Assembly (NCBI RefSeq): GCF_000759025.1
Contig: NZ_JPOS01000090.1
Location: forward strand, 62,001 to 126,000
DNA: 64,000 nt
Direction of reading: 5' to 3'
Source: Phaeodactylibacter xiamenensis
GTDB lineage: Bacteria; Bacteroidota; Bacteroidia; Chitinophagales; Saprospiraceae
A program made the translations under genes and the position numbers. Positions 16,480 through 21,199 of the stretch are shown here, in pieces. The stretch's first letter is position 1, and every line of letters starts with the position of its first letter. Below the pieces are notes generated by a model. It did not search any database and was not told where the DNA came from. It was given only the letters and a program-made list of their open reading frames with translations.

Positions 16480-17754
16480 ATGAGACCACTGGCAGAACGG
16501 ATGCGCCCCCGGCAATTGGCAGATTACGTAGGGCAGCAACATTTGGTAGGAACGGGCGCGGTATTGCGGCAGGCTATTGAGTCTGGCCAAATCCCCTCCT
16601 TTATTCTTTGGGGGCAGCCGGGCATCGGCAAGACCACCCTGGCGAAAATCATCGCCAATGAGCTTGACCGGCCCTTTCACACCTTGTCGGCTATCAACTC
16701 CGGCGTGAAGGATGTGCGGGAAACCATTCAGCGGGCCAAAAGCCAGCGCTTTTTCGATAGCCCCAACCCGATCCTGTTCATCGATGAGATCCACCGCTTT
16801 AGTAAATCCCAGCAGGATTCCCTGCTCGGGGCAGTGGAGGAGGGCGTAATCACGCTTATTGGAGCCACTACGGAAAACCCTTCCTTTGAGGTCATCCCGG
16901 CCCTCCTCTCCCGCTGCCAGGTGTATGTGCTGGAACCGCTTAGCAAGGAAGAACTGATCGGGCTTATTGAGCGGGCCCTCAAAGAAGATGAGTTTTTGAA
17001 AGGGCAGAAAATCAACATAGAGGACTACGATGCCATACTCCTCCACTCCGGTGGGGATGCCCGGAAGCTTTACAACATCCTGGAATTGGTGACGAATTAC
17101 GGCAAGGCGTCCGAGCCCATCACCGTGACCAATGAAATGGTGACCCAAAAGCTACAGCAAAACATCAGCCGGTACGATAAAGGCGGAGAGCAGCACTACG
17201 ATATCATATCGGCCTTTATCAAATCCATCCGGGGCAGCGATCCGAATGGGGCCGTCTATTGGCTTGCCCGCATGATCGAAGGAGGGGAAGATGTGAAGTT
17301 TATTGCCCGCCGGCTGCTGATTTCAGCGGCAGAAGATATTGGTCTGGCCAACCCCAATGCCTTACTGATGGCGACCACCACTTTCCAGGCGGTGCAGGCG
17401 GTCGGACTGCCCGAAAGCCGGATTATTTTATCTCAGGCGGCCATCTACCTGGCCAGTTCCCCAAAAAGCAACTCGGCATATATGGCTATCAATCAGGCCC
17501 AGCAGCTCGTCCGGCAGACCGGCAGCCTACCAGTGCCCCTGCACCTGCGCAATGCCCCTACTAAACTGATGAAAGACCTGGACTATGGCAAAGACTATAA
17601 GTACAGCCACGACTTCCCGGGCAACTTTGTGCAGCAGGATTTCCTCCCGGATCAGCTAAAGGGGCAAAAGCTTTTCGAGCCACAGGATAATGCCGCAGAG
17701 CAGAAGTTGAAGCGGCAGCTGAAAGAATGGTGGGACGACTGGTACGGGTATTAA
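16480..17754 (+). CDS. rarA: Replication-associated recombination protein A (RarA/MgsA AAA+ ATPase)
   Basis: 424 residues, full length. RarA/MgsA/WRNIP1 acts at stalled forks and single-strand gaps. Visible: [22 protein letters not shown], Walker [14 protein letters not shown], Walker [17 protein letters not shown], sensor 1 [19 protein letters not shown], sensor 2 [10 protein letters not shown], and the tetramerisation domain [31 protein letters not shown] ... FIARRLLI. Stands alone between two minus-strand T9SS genes. Its stop codon touches the T-run of a minus-strand terminator. Confidence 0.97.
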
Positions 17755-17828
17755 AAAAGGCTGTGCGAAAAGCACAGCCTTAGCTTATAATCCCATGAAC
17801 ATATCTAAAAAAATCTCACGAATAGTAC
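17753..17828 (-). ncRNA. Candidate small RNA, module A of three
   Basis: Minus-strand module: a perfect -7 box TACGTTTG (17841-17834), about 30 bases of leader, the shared 20-base box (plus-strand TTATAATCCCATGAACATAT at 17785-17804), 5 bases, then a perfect hairpin GGCTGTGC/GCACAGCC (17759-17779) with a six-T run into the rarA stop. The box is identical in module B. It contains the mini-frame ATG TTC ATG GGA TTA TAA, so a five-codon leader peptide is an alternative to a pure sRNA. The 5' end is estimated from the -7 box. Confidence 0.5.
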
Positions 17829-17898
17829 GTATCCAAACGTAAACGACCTTTGTTTAACCTAGTTGGAATCGTACTCTTGTATTTTAATCGGAGATTAT

Positions 17899-18035
17899 AA
17901 AAAATAGTAAGCCGTTCAGCCATTGTAGCGAACGGCTCACTACTAACAAATTATAATCCCATGAACATATTCAATTCTTAATGGTGAAAGGCGCTTTACG
18001 GTCCGTTGACAACGTTTCTTCTCTCTCACAGTACA
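17899..18035 (-). ncRNA. Candidate small RNA, module B of three
   Basis: Same plan as module A. The 20-base box at 17951-17970 is 20/20 identical. Hairpin arms AGTAAGCCGTTC (17906-17917) and GAACGGCTCACT (17930-17941) pair at 11 of 12 positions and are followed by a six-T run on the minus strand. The stem sequence differs completely from module A, so structure is kept while sequence is not. A near-consensus -7 box (AATATTTG) lies at about 18042-18049. 5' end estimated. Confidence 0.5.
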
Positions 18036-18169
18036 AATATTCAACATTATCCAGGGAAGAACAAAGACAAAAATAAGGGTTTGTGAAAAACAAAAAGGGA
18101 AATCTGTAGCAGAAGCCCATTAATAAAGAGGAAAAAGAAGCATTCTTGTGAAAAAAAATTGAGATCTCG

Positions 18170-18285
18170 AAAAAAAAAGTCGCACATTTCTGTGCGACTC
18201 AATAGCAATGATTATAATTCCACGAATGTATATACAATGAATGTATTACCAAGTTTGATGCGTTATTAACGCTTTGCAGGTACAA
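18170..18285 (-). ncRNA. Candidate small RNA, module C of three (diverged)
   Basis: Box at 18212-18231 matches A and B at 16 of 20 positions. Perfect hairpin GTCGCACA/TGTGCGAC (18179-18198), then a nine-T run on the minus strand. Upstream on that strand lies a GCGTTAATAACGC palindrome and a TTTTGTAC sequence similar to one before module B. It could alternatively be the 3' UTR and terminator of the T9SS gene at 18385-20898. 5' end estimated. Confidence 0.42.
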
Positions 18286-18384
18286 AATAGTATATATTTT
18301 TCCTGCATACTTCCCGATACACCCTCTTTTTTCGATGATTTACGAAATGAAGGGCTTAACGGGGAAAGGACAATCCGGCATGCT

Positions 18385-20898
18385 TTACCGGATCACCTGG
18401 AATTTTTTGTTGACCACGCCTCGTTCAGTATAGGCAGATAAAACGTAGATACCATTGGCAAAGGCCCCTACTGATATCTGCATGCGGTTAGTCAATACAT
18501 TATCGGAGTCGAACATTGGGCGACCGGTCAGGTCATGCACCACGATGCGTTCGAAATCCTGCTGTCCGTTCAGGTGGACATTGATGAAGTCCCGGTTGGT
18601 CGGGTTAGGATAAAGCTTCAGCTGATTGGCATCAAGCGGCTCGTCTTTTGCTTCCTCGTCCAAGCGGATGTGTATCGTTGCTCCACCTATATTAATGCCG
18701 TAAGAACTGCCACCACCATTCATCACGGTAGAGGAACCACCACCTACCTGCAGGGCTAGTGCGCCATCGTCGTCGCGGAAACCGTCTATATCATCATTAA
18801 TAACGAAGCTAACTGATCCTACCACCCCATAACCATTTGCAGCAATGGCATTCGTACGTGTAAAGCCAGCATTAAGCGTTCCCTCCTGATCATCCCGCTG
18901 CATATACAAAATGGGCGAGTTGTAAGTCAGCCAGCTGTTGGATTCAAAATCAACAAATACAGAGCCTGGTACTACCAAGTCTGAGTTATAAGAGAATGGG
19001 AAAGTGAATCCATAGACATTCTCTGCCGGATTACCGGGTGTTCCCATCTTCATTTTCAGCTCCACCAAATCGCCAGGGCTGACATAAAGGTCACCCTCCA
19101 GCACGATCTCATCTTCATAAAACGGGATAACGGAAGCCGTCATAGAGTGGGCATTACCATAGAAGTTGCTAATGGCCGTCGTATCCGCAGCAGTGATTAG
19201 GCTATCCCCATCCGTATCGAGGTGTTTCAGGTCAATAGGCAGGCTTTGGAATGGATCATTCCAGTCATCACCATACTTACCATACCAAAGATCAGGGTTA
19301 GCATCTGCACGTGGGACACCTACCTCACCGATCGCCCAGCCAATTGTCAGCAGGTCCTCCATATCTACAATGCCATCAAAGTTGGCATCACCAGACCAGA
19401 TACAATCATCAAAGCACATGGGTTCGGAGCCGTCTCCTATATCCAGGATATCAATATCAATTTTTACTGTCTTTAGGTAAGCGCAGCTGCCATTAATTTT
19501 AACGCAGTATTCCAGTTCAATTTCATCCAGTCCGCTGTCTATGCCATCATTAGGGGTATAGATGATGAGGTTATGGCCGGTAATTGGTTGACCCAAGATG
19601 GTCGTATCCACGTCACCCTCAAGGAAAATAGTAGATCCCAGGTTACCGCTCTCAATAATATCAAAGGAATAGGACTGAATAGGCACGCTGTAGCCCACCA
19701 CAAGCGGGGTCAGCTTGGGCGTACTCATCCGGAAGTTGGTAGCAGAAGGCTCATATTTGCTTACAAAGACGTAAACGGTTGCTGTTTCGGACTGACTGCC
19801 GGTACCGCCCGGAGGACAGGAAGTGTAAGTAAACCAATCTACGCCGGTAAAGCCTGCCGGCGGTGTGTAGCGGAATACGCCCCGCCCGTCAGCCTGAGGA
19901 TTGTAAGACGCGGTCCCATACTCTGGCTGAGCCTGCAACTGCACACAGCTGGCATCTGAACCAAAGAAGTCATTCTCCAAAGCATCAATTTCCACCTGCC
20001 CTTCAAAAGGCGTCATGTGGAACTCGTCATCAACCGCGAAGGAATTGTCCTCCAGGTCCATCACGTCAATTTCAATAACCTTATCGGCGCCCTGATAATC
20101 AAAGGCGAGGTAATCAATACCGACAAAGTCGGTGTTCGGCTCGTAATATGGAATAAACCCATCATTCGTATAGGTACCTTCAGCAGGTGACTGAGTCAGT
20201 GTATACTCCTGAGGGATAAAAACCGGGAGCGTGGTATTCTTTTTCGTAAAAAGTCTTGTTGTGTCTGATTGCCCTGCATTCTGCCCCAATACGCTGATGC
20301 TTACAGTGCCATTATCGCAGGTTCCTGTGCTGTCGCAGGCGACATAGTTAAGGTAAGCCGTACCTTCAAAATCTGTACTTGGGGTAAAGGTAATTGTACC
20401 ATCCGTTGCTGAATAAGTGGCGAAGCCGTTGTTGGCCAGCGGAATATTCTTGAGGTAAATAATTCCGGTGGTCGTCAGGTCATTCTGCAGCACATCGATA
20501 CTAACCGGTGTATTGACGTTGGTAGTCGCGTGATCGTGAAGGCACTCCACTGCTGAAGCCTTAACGACAATGTGAAAATTAACTTGCTCGTAAGAAAAGA
20601 CATTGGTCCAGACCAGCATCGTGAAATCATCTGCCCCCATCTGCCCATCCGTACGCGTGTAGGTCAACTCGTAGTTGAAAGGAGAAACTTCCGTCCAGCT
20701 TACAGAGCCATACTCAGGTGCAGAAACCAATGCCGGGTCGTTTGGCTCGGAGGTAAAGGAAAGTGTGGTGCTGATCTGATGGTACCCCTGGGACTCGTAA
20801 ATCGTGTCCCTCACCGTAGTCTGACTAAGCCCCAACGCAGGGAGCCCCAGCAGAACGAGGAGCAGGATTAGATTTTGCTTTCGTAAAAATACATTCAT
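18385..20898 (-). CDS. T9SS-secreted protein with Ig/cadherin-like repeats and dockerin-like motif
   Basis: 837 residues. Signal peptide MNVFLRKQNLILLLVLLGLPALGLSQ. About three Ig-like tandem domains of the VDDEF / IDVLQNDL / GFTGVDWFTYTSC type (bacterial 'Ig_3/cadherin-like' surface repeats), then two calcium-type dockerin-like loops (GDANFDGIVDMEDLLTIG and DTDGDSLITAADTTAISNFYG), a cohesin-like beta domain (GDLVELKMKMGTPGNPAENVYGFTFPFSYN), and the T9SS type A tail (KLYPNPTNRDFINVHL ... KKFQVIR). Dockerin plus cohesin-like pieces suggest a scaffold or self-assembly role on the surface, which is inference. Confidence 0.88.
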   Translation of the reverse strand: MNVFLRKQNLILLLVLLGLPALGLSQTTVRDTIYESQGYHQISTTLSFTSEPNDPALVSAPEYGSVSWTEVSPFNYELTYTRTDGQMGADDFTMLVWTNVFSYEQVNFHIVVKASAVECLHDHATTNVNTPVSIDVLQNDLTTTGIIYLKNIPLANNGFATYSATDGTITFTPSTDFEGTAYLNYVACDSTGTCDNGTVSISVLGQNAGQSDTTRLFTKKNTTLPVFIPQEYTLTQSPAEGTYTNDGFIPYYEPNTDFVGIDYLAFDYQGADKVIEIDVMDLEDNSFAVDDEFHMTPFEGQVEIDALENDFFGSDASCVQLQAQPEYGTASYNPQADGRGVFRYTPPAGFTGVDWFTYTSCPPGGTGSQSETATVYVFVSKYEPSATNFRMSTPKLTPLVVGYSVPIQSYSFDIIESGNLGSTIFLEGDVDTTILGQPITGHNLIIYTPNDGIDSGLDEIELEYCVKINGSCAYLKTVKIDIDILDIGDGSEPMCFDDCIWSGDANFDGIVDMEDLLTIGWAIGEVGVPRADANPDLWYGKYGDDWNDPFQSLPIDLKHLDTDGDSLITAADTTAISNFYGNAHSMTASVIPFYEDEIVLEGDLYVSPGDLVELKMKMGTPGNPAENVYGFTFPFSYNSDLVVPGSVFVDFESNSWLTYNSPILYMQRDDQEGTLNAGFTRTNAIAANGYGVVGSVSFVINDDIDGFRDDDGALALQVGGGSSTVMNGGGSSYGINIGGATIHIRLDEEAKDEPLDANQLKLYPNPTNRDFINVHLNGQQDFERIVVHDLTGRPMFDSDNVLTNRMQISVGAFANGIYVLSAYTERGVVNKKFQVIR

Positions 20899-21199
20899 GG
20901 ATTGTGAATTTGTTCTCTTTGCCGTGGACTCAAAGAGACGTGCATTGCTATTGTAAGACTAAAATACAACAATTCTGATAATTCTACGCTATTTAGGAGG
21001 CTCTGTTTCGAAATTAGGTCCTGAATTTTTTCTCCCCTAACCCTAAAATCAAACCTCCTAAATGGCATTTGATGCCAAAAAAGGTATCAGTTGTGAAAAA
21101 AATATCGTTACTTTTGTAAGGCTCAGACTTCGGAGGGTGCGCCTGAGTAGATTTGATGTAGTTTCCTATTCGTTGCTACCGACAAATATATACAATCTG
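20899..21199. other. Divergent intergenic region with a long-spaced inverted repeat and promoter
   Basis: Between the T9SS gene (minus) and the 21200 gene (plus). Contains a perfect 9-bp inverted repeat TTTAGGAGG (20992-21000) / CCTCCTAAA (21054-21062) spaced by 53 bases, and a plus-strand -7 box TACTTTTG at 21109-21116. The frame is open from 21062 but the promoter lies after that point, so the extension is not translated. Confidence 0.55.
21109..21116 (+). promoter_or_regulatory. Putative -7 box for the 21200 gene
   Basis: TACTTTTG, exact TAnnTTTG; a TTGTG lies about 15 bases upstream as a weak -33. Its position fixes the start at the ATG of MDMYNSK (21200) rather than at 21062. Confidence 0.5.

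Follow-up and report, generated by a model that had tools for sequence, protein, structure and literature searches.

Repeated motifs within a single RNA are known from CsrB and RsmZ, where they bind CsrA. To our knowledge, small-RNA control in Bacteroidota beyond Bacteroides has been little studied. The FopS RNAs of Bacteroides thetaiotaomicron are described as a paralogous sRNA family that has a shared seed and a variable remainder and pairs near the start codons of surface-protein mRNAs, and the main text of that report uses neither the word sponge nor the word decoy (PMC11697453). In Campylobacter jejuni, the available text on CJnc190 describes a translation-repressing sRNA whose antagonist, CJnc180, is encoded in cis on the opposite strand (PMC8687705). 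Here we analyse a locus of Phaeodactylibacter xiamenensis that is best explained as a member of a multicopy small-RNA family of Saprospiraceae not described before.

The locus lies on the minus strand of a 64,000-nucleotide stretch of DNA, all of which was analysed (the window). The preliminary description of this DNA reported two identical 20-base boxes and a divergent third copy, each ahead of a terminator-like hairpin, with no sequence common to the three stems, and the window sequence and a pattern count bear out all of this: ATATGTTCATGGGATTATAA has exact minus-strand matches at 17785-17804 (box A; model R1, below, E 3.0e-6) and 17951-17970 (box B; E 4.2e-8), a search allowing up to three mismatches gives 2 matches in the window versus 0.01 expected from shuffles, and box C (ATACATTCGTGGAATTATAA, 18212-18231) is identical to boxes A and B at 16 of 20 positions (own count) and is like the C boxes of loci L065, L066, L074, L123 and L159. 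Of these, L066 is a contig of Phaeodactylibacter luteus, a relative in culture, and has a pair of boxes. By reading, the hairpins begin about 4 nt past box A, 5 nt past box B and 12 nt past box C and are located at 17753-17780 (AGGCTGTGC/GCACAGCCT), 17899-17945 (with its T-run) and 18170-18199 (AGTCGCACA/TGTGCGACT), with T-runs of 6, 6 and 9, respectively. A putative promoter of module B, with a motif common to other loci, occupies 18034-18065 on the same strand (TTTG at 18062-18065, 20 nt, then AATATTTG at 18034-18041) and would place the transcript start near 18027. The TAnnTTTG sequence claimed for module A is present as TACGTTTG at 17834-17841, a consensus match that may be a second promoter. 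The array sits between the 3' ends of a minus-strand ORF of 837 aa (18385-20898) and a convergent plus-strand ORF (16480-17754), which from reading we take to encode a RarA/MgsA-like ATPase and whose 3' end is touched by the module A hairpin. The modules had also been taken for three independent sRNAs; each window module does have its own terminator-like hairpin, but in related loci the first hairpin is often without a T-run and not terminator-like, and a tandem arrangement thus does not by itself imply separate sRNAs.

How widespread is the box? A search of relatives had been suggested, and it was productive: model R1, built from 92 sequences (2 from the window and 90 hand-picked out of 191, with variants favoured), has matches with E <= 5e-4 in 101 of the 120 Saprospiraceae genomes, 1-9 per positive genome, and hairpins follow the boxes while their stems differ. 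At least two matches are found in 83 of the genomes and none in 19 of the 120 (own count). The P. xiamenensis genome itself has five boxes with E < 1e-4, distributed over three loci: two in the window, another two on C38 and a single box on C83. With up to three mismatches allowed, the box is found in 81 of 89 genomes of the same family versus 19 of 58 others, chance matches included (own count). Across a phylum sample of 296 genomes, 67 have some R1 match at E <= 0.1, and matches below 1e-4 fall, among those listed, in five Saprospiraceae (of six identified) and one other genome. We rejected as a true box the candidate in genome G203 (L167:1500-1530), where 24 box-like bases lie in a frame reading MPNHVHGIIII, presumably a transposase-like motif, and took the likeness to be coincidence. 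In public genome contigs, at least 118 stretches contain the exact 17-mer of the box; 61 of the 80 named stretches among the matches listed are Saprospiraceae, Saprospirales, Phaeodactylibacter or Lewinella/Lewinellaceae (own count), and at 78 of the 118 loci listed two or more box cores are neighbours, grouped as lying within 500 bases of the exact box. Box loci were picked by this 17-mer, and conservation inside it is partly a matter of choice.

The family had been put forward as unfamiliar, and Rfam 15 indeed has no match to it at gathering score. The window gives only two tRNAs at that score (all weak matches being below cut-off), and 12 loci of both RNA families treated here give only a group II intron. 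Such an intron (D1-D4-3, 59.9 bits) is matched at L216:2361-2526, downstream of the box array on C38. Four spellings in all, covering the box and the tail described below, match no paper text in a literature search, and of the papers listed for Saprospiraceae together with small RNA none concerns these RNAs by its title.

Several conventions define the locus counts that follow. Five loci of other lineages (L063, L085, L089, L094 and L122) were excluded from the counts of neighbouring ORFs, hairpins, near-locus starts and opposite-strand terminators; L149 and L157 were excluded from the same four counts because their boxes showed no following hairpin, which is a choice on outcome; and all seven were kept in the promoter-motif and box-grouping counts. 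Alignment A2 comprises 10 of 21 loci. The box core is GTTCATGGGATTA, commonly ATATGTTCATGGGATTATAATTTGTT, and varies little in 92 aligned boxes, sequences that were partly chosen. Folding 3' of the box is strong, with mean z between -4.4 and -5.8 for each of the four position classes (160 distinct exact modules, among the loci listed) compared to -0.28 for 188 random control windows, and the stem sequences differ from locus to locus; the box itself is predicted to be only 42-48% unpaired. T-runs of at least 5 follow 61-68% of last and single boxes versus 24-25% of first and middle ones (the same 160 modules), and an extended promoter, TTTG...CAT[AC]TTTGTATCGTGA, is present 5' of the first box at 42 of 110 loci, among those listed, versus 0-2 in controls. 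Since the promoter is at the first box and the T-runs are mainly at last and single boxes, many loci may yield a single transcript that bears several boxes. At L070, L076, L147 and L103 the multiple boxes lie within near-identical repeats, and at L147 and L103 the promoter-like sequence is, by reading, also part of the repeats. A function linked by synteny was rejected: neighbours differ among loci, and the commonest neighbour family, putatively cytochrome-peroxidase-like by reading, is present at 20 loci.

The preliminary description missed RNAs that bear the complement of the box. In three-box loci the middle copy is often split and preceded by an A-run with a GC hairpin, and the opposite strand of such a copy reads as a pair of anti-box segments with an intrinsic terminator after them. 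Among the loci listed, a terminator is present exclusively on the opposite strand at 14 of 32 middle boxes, versus at 6 of 180 other boxes (3/77 first, 2/75 last and 1/28 single); 12 of the 32 middle boxes have one on the box strand. An element on the minus strand of L092 (4550-4640; a Phaeodactylibacter MAG) combines a terminator-like hairpin with several segments of anti-box type; the tail described below was not seen in it, and it is perhaps a third type of decoy.

Separate anti-box elements were found through the box pattern in the P. xiamenensis genome at C20:254080-254173 (minus strand) and C37:50145-50236 (plus strand), both being, by reading, anti-box RNAs that have Bacteroidetes-type promoter sequences and terminators. 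Their tail, TGGTATGTAGATAGCCTCTCAAAG, defines a second RNA family (further loci L227-L256). The 24 nt tail is invariant across 28 aligned sequences (alignment A3, 28 of 32 sequences) and lies between a covarying hairpin on its 5' side and a terminator on its 3' side; the family was picked by a 32-mer with up to three mismatches, and conservation inside that 32-mer is partly by choice. In the flanking hairpins one or more double changes are seen at 15 of 24 predicted pairs, and five predicted pairs within the tail show no variation at all. By pattern and covariance model alike, the second family is present in 25 of 120 Saprospiraceae genomes, model R2 having been built from the very genomes in which it then finds matches, and all 25 are among the 101 box-positive ones (p 0.0077, phylogeny ignored); it was not found in the other 76. 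A phylum sample of 198 genomes, including at least six Saprospiraceae, has it in P. xiamenensis only, and Rfam 15 has no match at gathering score. Anti-box segments occur 5' of the tail in 28 of 33 arrays (five have none), versus 1/33 for the sense box and 2/33 for the reversed sequence. The box/array duplex energy is -20.4 kcal/mol versus -13.6 for shuffled arrays, with 21 of 33 arrays at p <= 0.02.

These elements have the potential to pair with the box. For example, the C37 RNA has, by reading, six anti-box-like segments, one of which could engage window module B in 29 base pairs, with one bulge and then a further short helix, for a total of -47.3 kcal/mol from which the cost of opening the hairpin of module B is not subtracted; another segment fits window module C (by reading). 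That the complements reside in separate, structured, terminator-bearing elements is, as judged from sequence, best explained by RNA-RNA pairing, and the conserved box, which had been proposed as a seed, probably does act through base pairing. An anti-box RNA is no better partner for the boxes of its own genome than are those of other genomes (cognate pairing test, p=0.34, with G053 left out as it has no exact box), and wobble-type changes in anti-boxes show no convincing excess (27/8 sites vs 11/4; 23/10 vs 12/4).

What might the box regulate? Seed targets around start codons had been suggested, and a scan of 866 starts (simple ORF calls in a 1.26-Mb sample of the 7.87-Mb genome) gave two candidates but no general excess over shuffles that keep the CAT. 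One candidate is the gene adjacent to the window array on its upstream side (the 837-aa ORF), whose product has Big_9, Cadherin_5 and Por_Secre_tail domains by domain search and whose start codon carries ATCCATGAATGTA (20890-20902, minus strand), at which boxes C and B might pair. Its start ranks 1 of 866 with a 25-nt box C and 2 with a 25-nt main box, a rank that is partly post hoc since the gene was spotted in a ranked list before testing, and its pair count with box C is matched by 2728 of 3000 shuffles. The other is the top start for the main box, that of a protein of 2450 aa, where a 21-nt box could pair without gaps at 20 of 21 positions spanning the AUG; this is equalled by 26 of 3000 shuffled boxes, and the 21-nt length was set post hoc. 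The sampled 1.26 Mb has two matches to the pattern AACAAAT[TC][AG]T[AG]ATC, one of them 16 nt 5' of the ATG of this protein and the other being, of necessity, the complement of window box B itself. The protein scores 25.5 bits for Por_Secre_tail, slightly under the curated cut-off of 27. With a longer segment of module B, both genes fall outside the six best starts. The leading candidates for targets are large proteins bearing sorting tails of the T9SS type.

Over all 866 starts, main-box pairing below -13 is found at 58, versus 42 for control sites inside genes and 38 for those upstream; 9 of 40 CAT-keeping shuffled boxes reach the real level; box C pairs at fewer starts (10) than sites inside genes (14) or upstream (20). 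For 444 starts near loci, the real count is reached by 11 of 60 shuffles that keep the CAT and by 2 of 60 full ones. In the genome, the box complement written as a wobble pattern has 10 non-box matches, none of which opens a convincing gene, and its reversed control likewise has 10. Near starts, the wobble 3' half with one mismatch occurs 2 times versus 1.9 expected, and the 5' half 23 times versus 9.8, an excess we do not count as this half contains ATG and ordinary start context. ATCC-N0/1-ATGAATRTA is present in 60 of 100 genomes, but the pattern was derived from the adjacent gene and is not independent of it. Given the null results for cognate pairing and for start-codon pairing, our claims on co-evolution and targets are limited.

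We propose that each module displays a conserved core ahead of a hairpin, the last hairpin usually being terminator-like, and that the core would act by base pairing, most probably with mRNAs that bear its complement across the start codon, where pairing would block translation initiation. Anti-box RNAs, encoded opposite to some box loci and at the separate tail loci, would imitate such targets and titrate the box RNAs; the pairing potential is present in the sequences, and expression and direction of control are inferred. To this model as a whole, multicopy box sRNAs that pair at start codons and are titrated by anti-box RNAs, we assign a probability of about 0.6. Its more specific form, a three-part Saprospiraceae circuit that works without Hfq or CsrA, in which box sRNAs repress giant surface proteins, antisense and tail RNAs titrate them and the tail relays a signal, is tentative and in our judgment possible rather than probable.

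Might the box instead act as DNA, or within its own transcript? A repetitive DNA element without an RNA role (a terminator repeat or a protein-binding DNA site) would account for multiple copies per genome with variable flanks, but it does not predict a promoter motif common to first boxes, T-runs chiefly at last and single boxes, or an antisense class that is strand-specific, and we regard it as very improbable. The box can also be read as ATG TTC ATG GGA TTA TAA, from which a five-residue leader peptide had been suggested; the stop codon is retained in only 6 of 38 variant boxes and the core is conserved, so the box is non-coding. At 53 of 93 loci, as in the window, the closest ORF downstream is moreover convergent, and the likelihood that a leader-peptide attenuator or other cis element governs the downstream gene is, we believe, close to nil.

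Protein partners bear on two further readings. Hfq and CsrA were each not found in 39 genomes (0/39), where control genomes were positive in 5 of 14 and 3 of 14 cases, respectively, and we therefore rejected an Hfq-type sRNA and a CsrA sponge. Several identical boxes per locus, strongly conserved over the family, would nevertheless suit a protein-binding site, multi-box RNAs then being protein sponges of the CsrB/RsmZ kind; this leaves the box complements in other RNAs unexplained, and together with the result for CsrA and Hfq it makes the idea unlikely, though protein binding could coexist with pairing. The pairing data themselves give no direction, and the invariance of the tail and its location between hairpins would suit tail-bearing anti-box RNAs as effectors with box RNAs as their sponges. 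We think this reversal unlikely: the tail has no start-codon partner beyond shuffles (minimum -25.8 versus -26.4 for the lowest of 25 shuffles), and boxes are in 101 of 120 genomes versus 25 for the second family. We favour the box RNAs as effectors because they are more widespread and because anti-box segments contain AUG and resemble start regions.

Two strongly conserved RNA families, one of which carries the complement of the other, would amount to a system for pairing and decoys without Hfq or CsrA, and raise the question of what such RNAs control across the large environmental family Saprospiraceae. Compared with CsrB/RsmZ, the likeness is in the repeated motifs within one RNA and the difference in CsrA, which was found in none of the 39 genomes searched. 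Compared by description rather than by seed letters with what is reported of FopS (PMC11697453), both are multicopy Bacteroidota sRNAs with a common conserved stretch and a variable rest, and the several paralogues per genome of FopS have their counterpart in the multiple boxes of P. xiamenensis and its relatives; the lineage is another one, the Saprospiraceae boxes are often in tandem and their complement is carried by other RNAs. As expected of an sRNA/decoy pair, the complement of the conserved stretch is found in most tail arrays and in many middle elements. The opposite-strand antagonist CJnc180 resembles the convergent anti-box elements, which we know as sequences, but CJnc190/CJnc180 is one pair at one locus, and the available text of that report makes no mention of tandem boxes or separate multi-site decoys (PMC8687705). 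By analogy, then, the mode of action proposed here resembles that of FopS and its antisense part resembles CJnc190/CJnc180, and we do not claim membership in either.
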